Positions 2,472 through 58,208 of a stretch of 64,000 nucleotides of DNA are shown piece after piece. The notes below the pieces were generated by a model that had not been told where the DNA came from, made no database searches, and was given only the letters and a program-made list of their open reading frames with translations. The first letter of the stretch is position 1. Each line of letters opens with the position of its first letter. The stretch comes from Vibrio bathopelagicus (lineage in GTDB: Bacteria > Pseudomonadota > Gammaproteobacteria > Enterobacterales > Vibrionaceae). The stretch spans positions 620,001 through 684,000 of the forward strand of contig NZ_CP062501.1 in assembly GCF_014879975.1 (NCBI RefSeq). The letters are read 5' to 3'. Made by a program: the position numbers and the translations under genes.

Positions 2472-4097
2472 ATGAGTTTTACCTCCCTTGGCCTTTCTGA
2501 ACCTATCCTTAAAGCTATTGAAGCGCAAGGTTACGATAAGCCATCACCAATTCAAGAGAAAGCCGTACCTGCTGTCTTAACAGGCAAAGATGTTATGGCC
2601 GCTGCTCAAACCGGTACAGGTAAAACTGCGGGCTTCACACTACCTATTCTTGAAATGTTATCGAAAGGTCCTCGCGTACGTCAGAATCAAGTTCGTGCGC
2701 TAGTGTTAACGCCAACCCGTGAGCTTGCTGCGCAGGTGAATGGTAGCGTAGTTAAGTACGGTATCAATCTACCTCTGACTTCTACGGTTGTATTTGGTGG
2801 TGTGAAAATTAATCCTCAGATGCAAAAACTGCGTAAAGGTAGTGATGTGCTGGTGGCAACACCGGGTCGTCTGCTTGACCTATACAACCAAAATGCAGTG
2901 CGCTTTGATCAACTAGAAATCCTAGTGTTAGATGAAGCCGACCGTATGTTAGACATGGGTTTCATTCGCGACATCCGTAAGATCTTGGCTTTCTTGCCTA
3001 AGAAACGTCAGAACCTACTGTTCTCGGCAACGTTCTCTGATGATATTCGTGGCTTGGCTAAGGGGTTAGTAAACAACCCAGTTGAAATCTCGGTAAGCCC
3101 TGCAAACTCAACGGCACCAACTGTTGAACAAAGCATTTATCCAGTAGATAAAAAGAAAAAAGCACCAATGCTAGCTAAGCTGATCAAAGATAATGATTGG
3201 CGACAAGTGCTCGTGTTCAGCAAAACGAAACATGGTGCCAACAAGCTTTCTCACTTCCTTGACGAGCAAGGTATCTCAGCGGCACCTATTCATGGTAATA
3301 AGAGCCAAGGCGCGCGTACTAAAGCCCTAGAGAACTTCAAAACGGGTAAAGTACGAGTATTAGTGGCGACAGATATCGCAGCTCGTGGTATTGATATTCC
3401 GCAACTGCCTCAAGTAGTGAACTTCGACCTTCCAAACGTATCAGAAGATTACGTTCACCGTATTGGTCGTACTGGCCGTGCTGGTGAAGTGGGTAAAGCA
3501 ATTTCATTGGTTTGTGCTGATGAAGTGGGTGAGCTGTTTGGTATCGAACGTCTTATCCAGCAAGTGCTTGAGCGCCGTGAACTTGAAGGTTTTGCACCTG
3601 TAAACAAGTTGCCTGAATCTCGTTTGGATTCGCGCCCGATTAAGCCTAAGAAGCCGAAAAAGACACGTGAACACTCTGATGGTCAACGTTCTGGTGAGAA
3701 TGCTCGCGGGCACAAACCAGCAGGTAAGAACAAGCGCCATGTTTCTGGTTCAGGTTCTGCTCCTAAGCGTAAGCCAAATGCGAACAAGCCTAACTCAGGT
3801 AACAAAGGCTCTGACAGCAACTCTGCAGTTGCTGGTGATGATAAGTCTGTAAGAAACAATGGCAGCAACTACAAGCGTGGTAATGCTGCCGGGGGTGCTG
3901 AGAAGAACACCAATTCAGGCGCTCAAAACGGTGCTGGTAAGCCGAAGAAATCAGGTTACGGTGGTAGTTATGGCCGCCCTGGCCGTTCATCAAACCAATC
4001 AACGTCTAACAAGCCTTCTGGCAACAAACCTTCGACGAACAAACCGTCAGGTAGTAAGCCATCTAGAAATCGTTCTAAGCCTGCTGCTCAAAAGTAA
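2472..4097 (+). CDS. rhlE: DEAD-box ATP-dependent RNA helicase RhlE
   Basis: Cytoplasmic RNA helicase of the RhlE branch, usually linked to ribosome assembly and RNA turnover. Visible motifs are the Q-motif region PSPIQ (25-29), motif I AQTGTGKT (45-52), PTREL (81-85), DEAD (154-157), SAT (185-187), ARGIDIP, and [10 protein letters not shown]. The helicase core ends near residue 380. The remaining ~160 residues are a basic, low-complexity tail rich in Lys, Asn, Ser, Gly and Pro, with repeated [10 protein letters not shown] units, typical of RNA-binding tails in this group. The start ATG is immediately followed by the canonical [13 protein letters not shown]. It is monocistronic, with a terminator at 4215-4251. 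Confidence 0.93.
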
Positions 4098-4214: not shown

Positions 4215-4251
4215 AAACGCGAATGTTGATACTCAATGTTCGCGTTTTTTT
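4215..4251 (+). terminator. Rho-independent terminator after rhlE
   Basis: A 9-bp stem AAACGCGAA/TTCGCGTTT with a 15-nt loop (which can itself form a small TTGA/TCAA stem) runs directly into a T-tract. Confidence 0.8.
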
Positions 4252-4390
4252 ATGTGTGTCATATAAGGATTTTATGGGTTGTTAGGTTGGAAATAGGCTG
4301 AGTAAATGGGAGATGGCAGGCTCTGAGAGGATTAATCGAACGTTAATCATTATTTAATAACAACATAATCACTAGCGTTTTTGTTTTATT

Positions 4391-4403
4391 TTGCAATTTG
4401 CAA
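4391..4403 (+). promoter_or_regulatory. LuxO binding site upstream of qrr copy A
   Basis: TTGCAATTTGCAA is a perfect match to the LuxO motif TTGCA-N3-TGCAA described for qrr promoters. A second half site TTGCA begins at 4411. The site is about 75 bp upstream of the sigma-54 elements, a normal enhancer distance for an NtrC-type activator. Confidence 0.85.
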
Positions 4404-4477
4404 TTCCACTTTGCAAAATAAACAGCAATTCGTGTCTAATACGTGTTCAGATGCGTAGTAAATACGTAGGTGAGAAG

Positions 4478-4494
4478 TTGGCACGTATGCTGCA
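4478..4494 (+). promoter_or_regulatory. Sigma-54 promoter of qrr copy A
   Basis: TTGGCAC (4478-4484) and CTGCA (4490-4494) place the invariant GG and GC doublets 12 bp apart (4480 and 4492), the exact -24/-12 spacing. The predicted start is about 4505, where the RNA begins TGACCC as known Qrr RNAs do. Confidence 0.9.
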
Positions 4495-4504
4495 TTAGTA
4501 ATGG

Positions 4505-4612
4505 TGACCCTTCTTAAGCCGAGGGTCACCTAGCCAACTGACGTTGTTAGTGAACCCATATTGTTCACACAAAATATATGACCAATCGCCTTTATTGTGA
4601 TTGGTTTTTTTT
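4505..4612 (+). ncRNA. qrr: Quorum regulatory small RNA Qrr (copy A)
   Basis: This is a Hfq-dependent sRNA that, at low cell density, represses the LuxR/HapR master regulator and controls aphA and luxO by base pairing. The first hairpin pairs TGACCC with GGGTCA. It is followed by the hallmark Qrr core TAGCCAACTGACGTTGTTAG and a spaced region. The terminator is ACCAATC...GATTGGT (4581-4604) plus nine T. The first 52 nt are identical to copy B at 12137-12245. LuxO and sigma-54 sites lie upstream. It sits between rhlE and the DUF3612 regulator. I cannot assign a Qrr number. Confidence 0.93.
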
Positions 4613-4728
4613 TGCCTGAATTTTGAGTTCTATTGGTTATTTTTACCAAGCTCATGAATCGAACATAGCAAACGAATTCACTATGTTCTTATTTGAGAGC
4701 GTGTTGTTGCTTTGCTGCATTAGACTCG

Positions 4729-6246
4729 CTAATCCCCACCACACTTTGAATAGCAGCTTGGTTGGCGTGGGCATTCTCCACCTCTGGAGCAGATAAGCCT
4801 CGCCTCTGTTTCGATCCCACGTTCAATCCAATTTATATTTAGAATCTTGGCTACTGTCGTGAGATCTTTCTTGATGTTACGCGGTATTGCTACCGAGCCA
4901 CCATTGCTGACGCATGACGCCTTAAGCTGCTCTGCGATGTCTCTCGAATTACCACCTTGAGCATCAATCGCCGGGTTTAAGTCTATACCAGCACACAACA
5001 CACGATTGTTACCCGCAGGATCCGTCATATTGATGGATTCACAGCAGTAGATTCTTGGCTCATCTCCCACATTTAAAATGGAGATCTGAGCTGAGCTACC
5101 CGCTCGAGGCTCTGATAATCGACGGAACACAGCCCAATGTTGACATGGGTCGGCGACCGTTCTCATATTCCCCCAAGGCAGTGGAATCCCGTTCCCGCGG
5201 TATACCGCCTTGAGTTTCCCCGGCCCATAAGCATCAAAGTAGTGCCAGTGAGGGTAGGGCGATACTACCGTCATTCGGCGCATCGCAACAGAGGGGGAAA
5301 CCCCCGCTCTTTTATGAACGTCGATTTCATAACCAGTACGATCAAGCAGCTGTCTAAATGGAACTTTAGGACACAGTAATGCGCCAGCAAAGAAGCTGGA
5401 TTCGAAGTCTCGCCATGCCTGAAGAATGTCTTGAGAGTTCAGCTGAGAAGAGCCCGATATTTGGTTATCGTCCCATGTATTGTTGTTACCGACCGACAAC
5501 ACACTCTTAAGCCCTTCCTTGCTGTGCAAAATGCAATGGCCAATATAAACCGATAAATCGTATTTCAGTCGAGTTGGGTACTCTTTGAGAATTTCGTTCA
5601 AGAAAATTGTACCCGGTGGTTCGAAGAACGAAGTCACCAATTGCTTGGCATTGATTCCTAGTTCATCTACCACGTCTTGGGGCGTGCGTGTTACCCAGCG
5701 AATTTGAATGCCTAAGTTTCTCGCGATGTCGATAAGGTCTTCGACGCCAAGGTTGAGGCGTTTCAAGCCAACTTCTTCTGCTGCTCGCTCTAGATCAGGG
5801 AAGTGGTTTTGATTGCTCTCTTGGTGAGCTCGAATCAAGAGGTGGGCGAACTGACGGCCAGAAATACCGGTTTGCGACAACATCTCTGGTATCGCAATTT
5901 GCAGGATGTCGTTGGAGAAGAGAAAGCTAGGCTCAAGCGCCATGCCACTTATCCCACCACGATTCCCTTTGTCAGGAGCGATGGCTTGTTGTTCTGATTC
6001 ATCGTCGAGGAACCATGTGGGGTTCTTCTGAAAGACCTGCGCAATGACTTCCAGCATATCGATGCTTGGAACCCGCTTTCCACGTTCAATCATTGAAAGG
6101 TAAGAAACGGAAGGTGCGTACTCTGGGTTGATTCTAATACAACGCGCAGACAGATCTTCCATGGTTAAATGGTTACGCTTCCTTAGGTTACGGATCTTAG
6201 TACCTAGGAAATGTGACTGACGAACTAAACTTTTTGACAAGGCCAT
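4729..6246 (-). CDS. XRE-family transcriptional regulator with DUF3612-type effector region
   Basis: The N-terminal ~70 residues are an XRE helix-turn-helix (KIRNLRKRNHLTMEDLS, then SYLSMIERGKRVPS). A long central/C-terminal region resembles the short-chain fatty-acyl regulators (PrpR/RamB-like, with DUF3612 in vibrios), and the tail is Cys-rich (CSRGGECPRQPSCYSKCGG) and may hold a metal. The family usually controls short-chain fatty acid or C2 carbon use, but the target here is unknown. A GTG at 6261 is possible. I choose ATG at 6246 because MALSKSL fits the family start. It is divergent from the 6432 gene, with operator-like repeats between. Confidence 0.75.
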   Translation of the reverse strand: MALSKSLVRQSHFLGTKIRNLRKRNHLTMEDLSARCIRINPEYAPSVSYLSMIERGKRVPSIDMLEVIAQVFQKNPTWFLDDESEQQAIAPDKGNRGGISGMALEPSFLFSNDILQIAIPEMLSQTGISGRQFAHLLIRAHQESNQNHFPDLERAAEEVGLKRLNLGVEDLIDIARNLGIQIRWVTRTPQDVVDELGINAKQLVTSFFEPPGTIFLNEILKEYPTRLKYDLSVYIGHCILHSKEGLKSVLSVGNNNTWDDNQISGSSQLNSQDILQAWRDFESSFFAGALLCPKVPFRQLLDRTGYEIDVHKRAGVSPSVAMRRMTVVSPYPHWHYFDAYGPGKLKAVYRGNGIPLPWGNMRTVADPCQHWAVFRRLSEPRAGSSAQISILNVGDEPRIYCCESINMTDPAGNNRVLCAGIDLNPAIDAQGGNSRDIAEQLKASCVSNGGSVAIPRNIKKDLTTVAKILNINWIERGIETEARLICSRGGECPRQPSCYSKCGGD

Positions 6247-6248
6247 AT

Positions 6249-6328
6249 TTGTAAAATTCACATTGTAAAATTTTTGTTGTGAAATTGTATGTAAAAAAGC
6301 GCTAATCTACAAACTAAGCAATTCACAA
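6249..6328. promoter_or_regulatory. Divergent promoter region with repeated TTGTRAAATT elements
   Basis: TTGTAAAATTCACA begins at 6249 and ATTGTAAAATTT at 6262. TTGTGAAATTGT is at 6277-6288, with a near-inverse CAATTCACAA at 6319-6328. The repeated half site between a regulator and its divergent neighbour suggests an operator for the DUF3612 regulator. The binding itself is inferred. Confidence 0.4.
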
Positions 6329-6431: not shown

Positions 6432-7034
6432 ATGAATATGCTTACATTCGATAAAACAGAAATCCAAAAACAAACAAAACCATTTATCGCTGAAGCTGTC
6501 TTTGCCGTGGAGACTATCAGTGCCAAACAGCAAACTGAGAAGCAAATCAAAGCGAAGCAACTGCTAGACCGATTGTTCCCACTAGAGAACGGCTCACATC
6601 AAGATGTAACGAGCTACGTAGTTGATTACCGCCATATCATGGCTTACTTCAAAGATGGCCAACACAGCGGCCTAAAGCATCCTAAGCAGTTTGTGGCTTA
6701 TATGGGGGAGAAGTGTGACCCAGACTCAATCTTGTTCCGAGATAGCAGTGGAAGCCACTTAGAAGTGATGTTTGGTTGTCACAAAGGGACGGGTTGCATT
6801 GAATTGGTCGATATCGATGATATTCAGTTAGAGTCGTGCACTACTTTTGGCCAGTCACCAATGGAAGCGGTACAAACGAATACTGAGCGTGAAGGAATCA
6901 CTACAGCAATACGTCACTGGATCAGCCTAGTTCAAGGTGATGAGAAGGGTAAACCAAAAGCATGCAGCGAAGACAAAGAGTTCAGAGCTAAGAGTGGTGA
7001 GGATTACTGTCTTAACTACTGTTACGCCCTTTAG
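6432..7034 (+). CDS. Conserved protein of unknown function, divergent from DUF3612 regulator
   Basis: A 200-residue soluble protein with no signal peptide or membrane segment. The ATG at 6432 has a good AGAGGGAAAG site; an ATG at 6396 in the same frame lacks one. The central part has a compact mixed alpha/beta look with FGCHKGTGCIEL near residue 117. The C-terminus is Cys-rich (SGEDYCLNYCYAL). I do not recognise the fold. Shared promoter space with a fatty-acyl-type regulator suggests it is that regulator's target. It ends at a strong terminator. Confidence 0.6.
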   Translation: MNMLTFDKTEIQKQTKPFIAEAVFAVETISAKQQTEKQIKAKQLLDRLFPLENGSHQDVTSYVVDYRHIMAYFKDGQHSGLKHPKQFVAYMGEKCDPDSILFRDSSGSHLEVMFGCHKGTGCIELVDIDDIQLESCTTFGQSPMEAVQTNTEREGITTAIRHWISLVQGDEKGKPKACSEDKEFRAKSGEDYCLNYCYAL

Positions 7035-7267: not shown

Positions 7268-8284
7268 CTACAGCGGCATTACTCTATTTCGGCCTAGAGA
7301 TTTCGCCTCGTAGAGTAGCTTATCAGCACGCTCGATCAGTGATTCTGCTGTTTCACCAGGTTCAAGCTCTGCAACGCCAAATGATGCGGTGATGCTACCG
7401 ACCTGTTGTCCACTGCGACGATCTTTGATCGACAGTTTTTCCAGAGAGCGTCTATTGGTATCAGCAAGTTGACGTGCGATGCGTAATGACTTGTTTGGAA
7501 CGATGAGCGCGAACTCTTCACCACCGAATCGGTAAGCAGAAATACCTTCGCGACACATTTGTTTTAACTTACGCGCAATGCCTTTAAGAACCATATCGCC
7601 AAATAAGTGGCCATAGGTGTCGTTGAAGTTTTTAAAATGGTCGATATCGAGAAGGATCAGACATAACGACTGTTTGGCTTCGCACAATGTTTCCAAATCG
7701 CGGTCCAGAGAGCGTCGATTGTAAAGTGTGGTTGTGCTATCAAATAGTGCGTCTTTCTGCACTTCGACAAGCTGTGTTTTAAGCTTGCTGATTTCTGACG
7801 TTGCAGAGTTCAGTTGAGAGCTTAAGAATTGAGTCGAATGTCGAATATTGCGAGATTCTGAAACCAGCTGACGAACCAACGACATCACTTCATCGATAGA
7901 CAAACTTTCATTGTCGACTCGAGACAAGTCTTCGAAGCTCTTATCGATCATCTCAGAGAAAGCTGAAGTGTCGGTGAGAGTATCGTTCATCGAGTTAGAA
8001 ACCTCAGAAACTAACAGTTCTAGGTTTGCTCGTAAGTCATTGATATTGGTTTCGGATTTGCTTGCAACGTAGTTGTTGTAGAGCTGTTCACCTACCGCAG
8101 GAGGGCAGATACCGTAGTGTTCTAACACACCATCCATATCTTTAGTGAGCTGCGGAATAGCGTTGTCGACATAGGTGTACCAAAGTGCGTAATTTGCAGG
8201 TGTTGTCGACACTCTATTCTTCATCATAAGAGGCACCGCTTTTTTCAAATTAGCGGTGGATTTCTGAAATTCATCTTTGTTCAT
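7268..8284 (-). CDS. Soluble diguanylate cyclase (GGEEF)
   Basis: 338 residues from ATG at 8284 (MNKDEFQKS). A GTG at 8320 would add 12 residues but is less typical of the family. There are no membrane segments. Residues ~1-160 form a helical N-terminal region ending in a coiled coil (~140-180), followed by a GGDEF domain with signature GGEEF at 254-258, expected to make c-di-GMP. The position five residues before the signature reads REGI, so the RxxD inhibitory site is absent, unlike the enzyme at 952. The coiled coil may drive the dimerisation needed for catalysis. It is a single gene. Confidence 0.87.
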   Translation of the reverse strand: MNKDEFQKSTANLKKAVPLMMKNRVSTTPANYALWYTYVDNAIPQLTKDMDGVLEHYGICPPAVGEQLYNNYVASKSETNINDLRANLELLVSEVSNSMNDTLTDTSAFSEMIDKSFEDLSRVDNESLSIDEVMSLVRQLVSESRNIRHSTQFLSSQLNSATSEISKLKTQLVEVQKDALFDSTTTLYNRRSLDRDLETLCEAKQSLCLILLDIDHFKNFNDTYGHLFGDMVLKGIARKLKQMCREGISAYRFGGEEFALIVPNKSLRIARQLADTNRRSLEKLSIKDRRSGQQVGSITASFGVAELEPGETAESLIERADKLLYEAKSLGRNRVMPL

Positions 8285-8669
8285 TATTTTTACTACAGAT
8301 ACCAAACCAACTAAAGCCACTTGCGAACAAGGTTAGCGGATTTTGCATGTATTTGCTTTAAAAATTATATAATTAATGGATAAGGGTTGGATAAATCAAT
8401 CATTTTTATTATGGACATCGATTGCATATTTATATCGAACATTAAATAGAGTGTTCTTTGACCAAAAGGAGAAGGCCAGACTTGGCGTTTCATTAAGTCG
8501 ATTGGTTTGGGTTCAGTGAAAAGTTGGCAACTGCCAAGAAGAATCGCTATGTTTTTGATAGATTGATTGGCTGTCTTCTCGGTGCTTTAAGAGTCAGTAG
8601 AAGATGAGCTTTGATAGGTAAGTTGAGAGAGTAGGAGGAAAAGGATAGCTGGAAGTTTTGTTTCAGGCA
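8285..8669. other. Intergenic region, no gene recognised
   Basis: 385 bp between the GGEEF gene start and the cold-shock gene terminator. It is AT-rich near 8340-8460, consistent with the minus-strand promoter. A small palindrome TTGGCAACTGCCAA lies at about 8524-8537. I see no coding sequence or RNA signature. Confidence 0.4.
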
Positions 8670-8700
8670 TAAAAAAGCGCCGATAAAAATCAGCGCTTTA
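8670..8700 (-). terminator. Terminator of cold-shock gene
   Basis: On the minus strand AAAGCGC and GCGCTTT flank a 12-nt loop, followed by further T residues. Confidence 0.75.
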
Positions 8701-8724
8701 AAATTCTTTTTAGCTAAAAGCTAA

Positions 8725-8937
8725 TTATTGAGCAACAACGTTTGCTGCTTGTAGGCCTTTTTGACCGTTTTCAACTTCGAAAGAAACCTTTTGGCCTTCT
8801 TTCAGAGTTTTGAAACCTTCTGAAGCGATTGCACGGAAGTGAACGAATACGTCAGCACCGCCGTTGTCTTGAGAAATGAAACCGAAACCTTTCTCTTCGT
8901 TAAACCATTTTACAGTGCCAGTATTTGTGTTAGACAT
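8725..8937 (-). CDS. CspA-family cold-shock protein
   Basis: A 70-residue single cold-shock domain that binds single-stranded RNA/DNA and melts RNA structure. RNP1-like KGFGFIS and RNP2-like VFVHF are both present. ATG at 8937 follows AAGGGA at a normal distance; the in-frame ATG at 8955 lacks one. The predicted 5' leader upstream is long (up to ~250 nt), as in cold-inducible csp genes, which suggests post-transcriptional thermoregulation. That is inferred from family behaviour. Confidence 0.93.
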
Positions 8938-9252
8938 AATTTGTCCCTTATTCATAAATTTTCTAAATTGTTGATTGCATTACTGCAATGCGCTGATAAT
9001 TGAATTATTTAATATTGCTAAGAAATAAGGAAAAACTACTTACAAAAACGGGTAACGATTTTACATGTCATTTTTTACTATTTATCTAACTTAAATAACT
9101 CCGGCTAACAGAGCGAGTGCATGTTAACACAGTCTTTCCGGTTGTACACTCATTGATTGAGAAATCAGCGAGTTTTTTTGTCATGTTGTGCTCGTTAACA
9201 AAACTACCCTTAATAGCTGATAGTTTTATAAAGTCACGCGCCATGACAAAGT
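8938..9252. other. Cold-shock gene leader and promoter region
   Basis: 315 bp with no gene. The part nearest the start codon (8938-9100) is AT-rich and probably the 5' untranslated leader. A hairpin with a T-run on the opposite strand is listed separately at 9149-9179. Confidence 0.4.
9149..9179 (+). terminator. Terminator-like hairpin on the plus strand opposite the csp leader
   Basis: CTCATTGATT (9149-9158) and AATCAGCGAG (9163-9172) pair over nine of ten positions including one wobble, around a GAGA loop, followed by seven T. No plus-strand gene is annotated before it. Confidence 0.4.
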
Positions 9253-10585: not shown

Positions 10586-11824
10586 TTAAGCGGCCTGAGA
10601 TTTCAGAGCGTTTTTATTCAATAGAGGGTTAAGCACGAGGTAACTGATCGCACCACCAAACACGGCGTTCAAAGGAACGATGCCAGGAAGGAAGTGACCA
10701 GCGGCTACGCCTGTTGCTACCGCGATAATGCCAGCCCAGTTAACGGTTTGGAACTCTGCTTTTGCAAAATCTTTGTAACGTTTACGGTTCGCAAAGAAAT
10801 CGGCGATGATTACGCCACCAATTGGTGGAATTGCCAACGAAAGGAAGGTTAACCAGCCGACGAAGTTGTTGTACAACCAAAGCGCGAAAATCGTACCTAC
10901 GATACCGTTAATGATAGACATTGTAGTACTTGAGCGACCAGTGATGTTGGATAAACCAAGACCTGACGCATAAAGTGCGTTTTCATTGGTTGTCCAGATG
11001 TTCAAGCCTAGAACGATGATGGCAGGAAGAAGTAGTCCTTGCGCAATCATCACATCTGAAATGTCAGAGAGACCCGTCGCTGCTGCACCTGCCGCGCCAA
11101 AGATAAACATCAGTGAGTTACCGATGAAGAATGCGACCATTGTAATTAACACTGCGCTCGCTGGCTTTTTACCAAAGCGGACGAAATCGGCAGTCAACGT
11201 ACCCGCACTAACGAACGAACCGACAACCATGGCAAGCGCCATTGAGAAGTCCATTGGTGTTTCTGGCTCGATGAGTTGTAACTGTTCTAGCCCGCCAACA
11301 CTGTCTACCGCAGTCAGTACAGAGTAACCACCCAGAATTGCAATTGCAGGAACAGCAATAGCTGAGAGTACCATTAGCGCTTTAATACCGAAGTACACCG
11401 TACCGGTCATCAACAAGCCTGATACAACAATTAAGGTGTTGGTATCAATGCCCGTGGCTTTCTGTACCGGAATCGCAAACATGGCAACGCCTACACCAAA
11501 CCAACCGACTTGTGTACCACCAAGTAGAGCAGAGGGAAGCCATGAGCCTTTAGTACCGAAAGAGAAACGAGCAAGGAGGTGAGTAGAGAGGCCAGTAGAT
11601 GCGCCGATGTAGCCAAGAAAAGAAGTGTAAATACCGAGGATTAGGTTACCGATGAGAACGGCGAGGAAGAAATCGTTGAATGAAAGACCTGTCCCGAGTG
11701 AACCACCGGTCCACATACTTGCAGAGAAGAAAGTGAGTCCAAGCATTACCATGGTGAGTGAAGCAACTCCTTTCCTAGCCGATGTAGGAACCGGCCCTAG
11801 ACTGTAGTTATTATCAGCAGCCAT
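10586..11824 (-). CDS. codB: Cytosine permease
   Basis: A 412-residue NCS1-family transporter with about 12 membrane helices that imports cytosine with a cation. The length and the N-terminal TMVMLGLTFFSASMWTGGSL segment fit CodB. ATG at 11824 has a strong GGAGGT site. It is first in the codBA operon. A PurR-like box at 11875-11890 and a perfect LacI-type palindrome at 12015-12030 lie upstream, in line with purine/nitrogen control of codBA in enterobacteria. Confidence 0.95.
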   Translation of the reverse strand: MAADNNYSLGPVPTSARKGVASLTMVMLGLTFFSASMWTGGSLGTGLSFNDFFLAVLIGNLILGIYTSFLGYIGASTGLSTHLLARFSFGTKGSWLPSALLGGTQVGWFGVGVAMFAIPVQKATGIDTNTLIVVSGLLMTGTVYFGIKALMVLSAIAVPAIAILGGYSVLTAVDSVGGLEQLQLIEPETPMDFSMALAMVVGSFVSAGTLTADFVRFGKKPASAVLITMVAFFIGNSLMFIFGAAGAAATGLSDISDVMIAQGLLLPAIIVLGLNIWTTNENALYASGLGLSNITGRSSTTMSIINGIVGTIFALWLYNNFVGWLTFLSLAIPPIGGVIIADFFANRKRYKDFAKAEFQTVNWAGIIAVATGVAAGHFLPGIVPLNAVFGGAISYLVLNPLLNKNALKSQAA

Positions 11825-12136: not shown

Positions 12137-12245
12137 AAAAAAATGGCCAATCGCAATATTCGCAATTGGCCTATATATATCGTGAACAAGAAAGGTTCAC
12201 TAACAACGTCAGTTGGCTAGGTGACCCTCGGCTTAAGAAGGGTCA
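12137..12245 (-). ncRNA. qrr: Quorum regulatory small RNA Qrr (copy B)
   Basis: A second Qrr RNA, transcribed toward codBA. Reading the minus strand, the RNA starts TGACCC at 12245. It has the same 5' hairpin and core TAGCCAACTGACGTTGTTAG as copy A (52 nt identical), then a divergent spacer. The terminator is GGCCAATTGCGA/TCGCGATTGGCC-like (12144-12171) with seven T. A sigma-54 promoter and LuxO-like sites lie upstream. Qrr copies act additively or redundantly in vibrios. An apparent 124-codon frame over this locus is not a gene. Confidence 0.93.
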
Positions 12246-12422: not shown

Positions 12423-12492
12423 TTGTAATGTTGTAATGTTGTAATGTTGTAATGTTGTAATGTTGTAATGTTGTAATGTTGTAATGTTGTAA
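12423..12492. repeat. Octanucleotide tandem repeat (TTGTAATG)8 plus partial copy
   Basis: Eight perfect copies of TTGTAATG (12423-12486) plus TTGTAA. A looser ACTAAA-type repeat follows at about 12522-12572. The array is intergenic, upstream of the LuxO sites of qrr copy B and downstream of the HlyD-family gene. Length variation between strains is likely. Confidence 0.9.
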
Positions 12493-58112: not shown

Positions 58113-58208
58113 TAAGTGGCGGCCCCGCTATCATAGACAGAATATTTGTCGACAGACCGGTGGCTTTGCGTCCTATTCTTTCAAATAGTTTGCCAGAAGT
58201 GCGTTTGA
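58113..58208 (-). ncRNA. c-di-GMP-I (GEMM) riboswitch upstream of gbpA
   Basis: On the minus strand: GGCAAAC (58195-58189), a P1b stem closed by a GAAA tetraloop (CTATTT-GAAA-GAATAG), GGACGCAAAGCCACCGG, and the second-half TAGCGGGGCCGCC (58132-58120). These are the hallmark conserved blocks of class I c-di-GMP aptamers. V. cholerae gbpA has the same arrangement (Vc1). A short hairpin CACTTAA/TTAAGTG directly after may be part of the expression platform, ~75 nt before the ATG. Confidence 0.92.

Follow-up and report, generated by a model that had tools for sequence, protein, structure and literature searches.

Does the gap between a DEAD-box helicase gene and a DUF3612 regulator gene in Vibrio bathopelagicus hold a functional quorum-sensing RNA gene, and which regulators would act on its promoter? 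We addressed these questions within a 64,000-nucleotide stretch of the genome, hereafter called the window. The initial annotation, made from the sequence alone, had placed a Qrr small RNA locus in this gap. The placement was right: the helicase gene, called rhlE at that stage, ends at 4097, and the convergent HTH/DUF3612 gene occupies 4729-6261 on the minus strand. Assignment to the Qrr family was borne out as well, since the Rfam Qrr model (RF00378) matched 4505-4614 on the plus strand at 110.7 bits (E 1.6e-20), far over the gathering score of 50. The match is full length, spanning model positions 1-108 of 108. We call this gene copy A. The features considered below are the following.

4355-4374, minus strand: predicted LuxR/HapR/OpaR-type operator, TAGTGATTATGTTGTTATTA (matrix score 13.7)
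4391-4403, plus strand: LuxO-P enhancer dyad, exact TTGCAATTTGCAA (0 mismatches)
4404-4416, plus strand: second LuxO dyad, TTCCACTTTGCAA (one mismatch to TTGCANNNTGCAA)
4439-4458, plus strand: conserved dyad resembling an AphA box, ATACGTG-N6-TGCGTAG, between enhancer and promoter (conservation 0.93 at 4440-4464; binder uncertain)
4479-4494, plus strand: sigma-54 -24/-12 promoter, TGGCACGTATGCTGCA (one mismatch to consensus)
4505-4614, plus strand: Qrr small RNA copy A, orthologue of Harveyi-clade qrr4, with Rho-independent terminator (RF00378, 110.7 bits)
12137-12245, minus strand: Qrr copy B (RF00378, 108.4 bits), facing copy A at a distance of about 7.5 kb

The copy A RNA and its promoter

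The boundaries of the RNA were examined first against the model. Its beginning at 4505 stood, and the match places its end at 4614 instead of 4612. The Rho-independent terminator consists of a terminator-like stem at 4580-4606 followed by a T run. The transcription start had been said to agree with the promoter to the base. It is indeed predicted at 4505; however, 4506 is also possible, because the V. parahaemolyticus qrr starts determined by primer extension are reported to lie 1 bp downstream of the prediction. Folding of 24 Qrr sequences with RNAalifold recovered the expected stems and the terminator. Five of the 31 consensus pairs changed on both sides with pairing kept, all of them in the terminator stem, while the first stem and the core are nearly invariant and covariation is uninformative there. 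The broken pairs seen in the first stem come from two rows of the alignment (L073 and L079) whose 5′ ends are misaligned.

Upstream of the RNA, the LuxO site at 4391-4403 is perfect, as had been claimed, and it is the sole exact TTGCANNNTGCAA of the 64 kb window, where 0.07 would be expected by base composition. To this one perfect dyad must be added the imperfect dyad that adjoins it at 4404-4416; a second imperfect dyad right after the first is also present in most Splendidus-clade rows. The -24/-12 element is likewise present at 4479-4494, but calling it exact was slightly strong, its one mismatch being counted against TGGCACGNNNNTTGCW, which we take to be the sigma-54 consensus. A LuxO dyad and a sigma-54 element at suitable spacing were matched once in the window and never in 100 shuffles. 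With a slightly wider pattern applied to the whole genome (5.67 Mb), the exact dyad followed by a sigma-54 element gave three matches and a control pattern gave none. All three matches precede Qrr genes, namely qrr1, the Qrr gene at C2:456632 and copy A.

By analogy with the known family, expression of copy A would depend on LuxO-P and RpoN, and its product would use Hfq and act on the family's targets. At low cell density, phosphorylated LuxO would bind the two dyads at 4391-4416 and activate sigma-54 RNA polymerase at 4479-4494. The product would be an Hfq-type small RNA of about 110 nt, which informs the cell that neighbours are few.

Copy A is the orthologue of Harveyi-clade qrr4

DUF3612 loci were fetched from named genomes, and the best 80 of 166 matched loci were compared; the closest relative among them is V. 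lentus, at 99%. In 73 of these best 80 of 166, a Qrr gene lies just downstream of the DUF3612 gene, the two being oriented to each other as in the window. Two search patterns found no Qrr within the fetched stretch at two Vibrio loci (L036 and L103) and at five Aliivibrio loci. Promoters were counted for 72 of the 73 loci, as one (L048) has a Qrr gene and no promoter sequence on its contig. The V. thalassae locus (L057) has two Qrr copies 0.9 kb apart on the minus strand, at 11690 and 12583, downstream of the DUF3612 gene, and the second was left out of the copy A set. Within this sample drawn from the best 80 of 166 loci, the LuxO dyad is exact in 61 of the 72 orthologous promoters, and all 72 have, within 170 bp, a dyad with no more than one mismatch. 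TGGCAY-N6-TGCW stands at the right distance in 72 out of 72.

The V. harveyi orthologue (L100) carries a LuxR-type box, TGCTGACAAAGGGATTAGTA, at -167 and an AphA-type box, ATATGCCACAACATGCATTG on the reverse strand, at -146. These positions and near-sequences are those published for the LuxR/OpaR and AphA boxes of qrr4 in V. harveyi and V. parahaemolyticus. The matrix scores of the two boxes are partly circular, because published qrr4 sites from the same clade went into the matrices; the sequences and positions of the boxes are not. Thus, the Qrr gene adjacent to the DUF3612 gene of V. harveyi bears the published qrr4 boxes, and copy A is therefore the orthologue of Harveyi-clade qrr4.

Copy A shares with the qrr4 genes of V. 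harveyi and V. parahaemolyticus (VIBHAR_06697; VPA0199-0200 intergenic) the Qrr RNA, a LuxO dyad near -114, the sigma-54 promoter, a LuxR-type box upstream of the LuxO sites and, as seen in the V. harveyi locus, the DUF3612 neighbour. Two differences were observed. The LuxR-type box lies at -150 in copy A as compared to -167 in the other two species. Moreover, the AphA operator found at -146 (-146 to -127 by the V. parahaemolyticus position) is absent in copy A, where the best AphA-type match is instead the dyad at -66. An AphA operator at -146 to -127 is not family-defining.

The number given to the gene may not always be transferable. In the V. furnissii orthologue (L073) the LuxO dyads are 17 bp apart, a spacing that is listed for qrr2, not qrr4, of its relative V. 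fluvialis. The qrr4 numbering may therefore not hold outside the Harveyi clade, and the same place may be called qrr2 in V. fluvialis numbering. V. splendidus has previously been stated to have Qrr1-4, so that the copy A locus itself was expected.

Two further conserved blocks in Splendidus-clade qrr4 promoters

To describe the conservation of the promoter, 25-bp means were computed over 15 Splendidus-clade sequences, the window included. Three blocks upstream of the -24 element reached 0.92-0.93 in these 15 sequences: 4355-4379, 4390-4414 and 4440-4464. The middle one corresponds to the LuxO pair. Conservation was 0.84-0.86 between the first two blocks and 0.76-0.77 at 4415-4444. Further upstream it was 0.57-0.66 at 4250-4339, and near 4215-4264 the upstream gene's terminator was also conserved (0.74-0.81). 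Splendidus-clade qrr4 promoters keep two conserved blocks in addition to the LuxO pair, at the putative operators 4355-4374 and 4439-4458. This is the new point of the analysis, and these blocks may show how feedback control differs in the Splendidus group. A literature search covering titles and abstract openings found no report of an AphA or LuxR box at Splendidus-clade qrr4. The qrr, LuxR and AphA literature drawn on here is listed by accession (PMC8043402, PMC2680268, PMC11443567, PMC2628434, PMC3440409, PMC3323551, PMC8630636, PMC3828260, PMC3262071, PMC6262261).

Plain counting against a LuxR consensus showed nothing clear: in the window, 42 of 200 shuffles did equally well. A matrix built from published LuxR/OpaR sites did resolve the box. 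The score of 13.7 at 4355-4374 has a per-position frequency of 4.9e-5 over 1,624,550 positions, and a matrix lacking any qrr site still gave 11.0 (frequency 1.4e-4). In the window, one of 500 dinucleotide shuffles reached 13.7. The best LuxR-type score was reached by 2-21 of 500 shuffles in 12 of the 15 relatives; the box is weak in the three others (L044, L049 and L050, with 120, 121 and 174 of 500). Box scores for LuxR or AphA across these relatives are not independent tests, because the relatives are close kin. Overall, a predicted LuxR-type operator at 4355-4374 is well supported. As at V. harveyi qrr4, it would probably feed back positively on the gene.

The spacer block and the question of its binder

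The second of these two additional blocks, between enhancer and promoter, would be the site of a further regulator, possibly AphA. The AphA matrix scored 8.8 at 4439-4458 in the window and 11.0 in 8 of the 15 relatives. In the window, 62 of 500 shuffles reached the score, as compared to 13-37 of 500 in 12 of the 15 relatives and 68, 209 and 128 of 500 in L041, L049 and L050; in L049 the best match lay elsewhere. AphA is thus a weakly supported candidate for the protein that binds this block.

The first 52 nt of copy B are identical to those of copy A, and it too has a sigma-54 promoter. It differs in having imperfect LuxO dyads only (one with one mismatch, one with two), a different spacer block and no support for a LuxR-type box. 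The copy B clade nevertheless keeps a conserved spacer block of its own, ATACGCACCAAATTGCTATA, similar-looking to that of copy A. On copy B, the published LuxR and AphA matrices gave no support in the window or in most of 13 relatives, the exception being an AphA-type match in L050 that one of 500 shuffles reached. Upstream of copy B, at 12427-12490, stand eight head-to-tail copies of an 8-base unit, ACAACATT as read on the minus strand, in a stretch that differs in relatives.

One reading, evenly balanced in our judgement, is that copy A is the qrr4 orthologue and that the block at 4439-4458 serves a regulator other than AphA (LuxT-like, Fis or unknown), maybe shared with copy B. This would fit a block that is conserved and yet shows only a modest match to the AphA matrix, as well as the similar conserved block in copy B that the AphA matrix does not support. 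A pattern built from both spacer blocks matched these two places only in the genome, which is weak evidence because the pattern was designed around the two and we estimate that about 0.7 matches would arise by chance. LuxT is described as binding -76 to -27 of V. harveyi qrr1. Against a different regulator stand two properties of the dyad itself: it has the spacing of ATATGCA-N6-TGCATAT, and the substitutions found in relatives keep the AphA score (10.5-12.8 in L042, L044, L046 and L047).

We also consider, more tentatively and as the less probable course, that Splendidus-clade qrr4 was rewired. The direct LuxR-type feedback operator would have been kept and the AphA operator moved from about 100 nt above the promoter into the enhancer-promoter stretch, where AphA, or another qrr-specific regulator also serving copy B, could block enhancer looping. 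In published work, direct AphA control of qrr4 is predicted in five other species only, and the mechanism is called highly unusual on account of a site placed about 100 nt above the promoter. It would be simpler for the operator to lie between enhancer and promoter. If true, a moved AphA operator would contradict the published prediction that direct control is confined to those five species. Whichever protein binds it, the conserved block in the spacer is a specific candidate for the site of an extra qrr regulator, and the locus offers a testable case of which extra regulators tune single, otherwise redundant qrr genes.

The quorum-sensing circuit and predicted Qrr targets

Four Qrr genes were found in the genome: copy A, copy B, the gene at C2:456632 and a shorter qrr1 at C1:2539756. 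Like copy A, qrr1 has a LuxO dyad, a sigma-54 promoter and the Qrr core. It differs from copy A by its position beside luxO, its length of 93 nt, a shortened first stem and a score of 76.9 bits. LuxO and LuxU are encoded around qrr1, a LuxR/HapR homologue at C1:3034507 and AphA at C1:3345233, these four names resting on a reading of translated frames. At C1:3034365 there is a perfect match to the AphA box that has been published for luxR of V. splendidus and others.

The conserved Qrr core would repress luxR (hapR-type) by pairing with its mRNA and activate aphA by pairing with its leader. In the luxR leader, GTTGGCAAGG lies just before the start codon and is complementary, but for one mismatch, to CCTAGCCAAC of the Qrr RNA; the best duplex, at -19.7, was reached by 2 of 60 shuffles. 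In the aphA leader, a 9-nt match was found about 139 nt upstream of the ATG, where the best duplex was -22.0 (5 of 60 shuffles). Published work places the Qrr-aphA pairing at about 130 nt. No Qrr pairing signal was detected in the proximal aphA leader, where 23 of 60 shuffles were as good. The leaders of eight window genes served as comparison and gave 0 of 60 for a GGDEF gene, 3 of 60 for the gene at 6432, 10 of 60 for a CHASE-GGDEF gene and between 17 and 26 of 60 for each of the five remaining genes. The duplex test alone is therefore not decisive, because the GGDEF and 6432 leaders did as well as luxR. Copy A is complementary to the luxR/hapR and aphA leaders of the same genome, and pairing in the cell is predicted.

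The strongest duplex raised the possibility that copies A and B have their main effect on the c-di-GMP gene situated between the two (7268-8284, minus strand), in the manner of V. cholerae Qrr on vca0939, a known GGDEF target. The leader of this gene, at 8300-8329 on the minus strand, forms a near-continuous predicted duplex with the Qrr core at -26.3 kcal/mol, reached by none of 60 shuffles. However, the duplex is not conserved: at most one of 40 shuffles reached the energy in only 6 of 43 rows, the window included. Three of the 45 matches (L047, L083 and L104) stopped short of the gene start and were excluded, and in 10 of the 43 rows the assumed start misses the real one by no more than a few codons. 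We rejected the gene as a Qrr target, and a main action of the two RNAs on it appears improbable.

Activity of copy A

Copy A could also be intact in sequence and contribute little, as a redundant or nearly silent qrr gene. Since Qrr genes are largely redundant, it could be silent without effect, and V. harveyi Qrr1 and Qrr5 are described as made at a low level. We consider this unlikely: copy A has the only perfect dyad of the window together with strong conservation, and its V. harveyi orthologue, qrr4, is reported to show the highest expression among the copies of that species. The remaining reading, a chance resemblance or a decayed relic, can be dismissed, as it is refuted by the E-value of 1.6e-20, by the failure of all 100 shuffles to give the promoter architecture and by a core identical or nearly so across the aligned relatives, with nothing found in its favour.

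Copy A is an intact, conserved and mostly ordinary member of a known family, whose activity we infer from that family. The gene, its promoter elements, its synteny, its conservation and the presence of the circuit genes were observed directly, and we hold with high confidence that the locus is a functional-looking qrr4 gene, in Harveyi-clade numbering, of a Splendidus-clade Vibrio. The annotation of a central quorum-sensing RNA is thereby fixed in the V. bathopelagicus genome. Small-RNA sequencing of V. splendidus LGP32 has been published, as cited in PMC6262261.

Qrr genes across Vibrio and other features of the window

A Qrr match was found in 185 of the 196 Vibrio genomes searched, most of them with several copies. 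Nine genomes (G132, G068, G085, G111, G073, G112, G156, G157 and G155) have 6-9 matches each, 5-8 of them above the gathering score, which exceeds the copy numbers of 1, 4 or 5 stated in PMC3262071. Among 41 distinct Qrr promoters examined in these high-copy genomes, 14 are without a LuxO dyad within one mismatch. A new class of Qrr genes devoid of the dyad was considered and rejected, as 13 of the 14 align, by eye, on a degenerate LuxO-like TTGCAAAATG / CATTTTG pair.

Three further features of the window were recorded. The gene at 6432-7031 on the plus strand encodes a small stand-alone protein that matches only the malate synthase G insertion domain (PF20658). A cspA thermoregulator leader at 8670-9117 and a c-di-GMP-I riboswitch at 58115-58204, both on the minus strand, score above their Rfam gathering scores.
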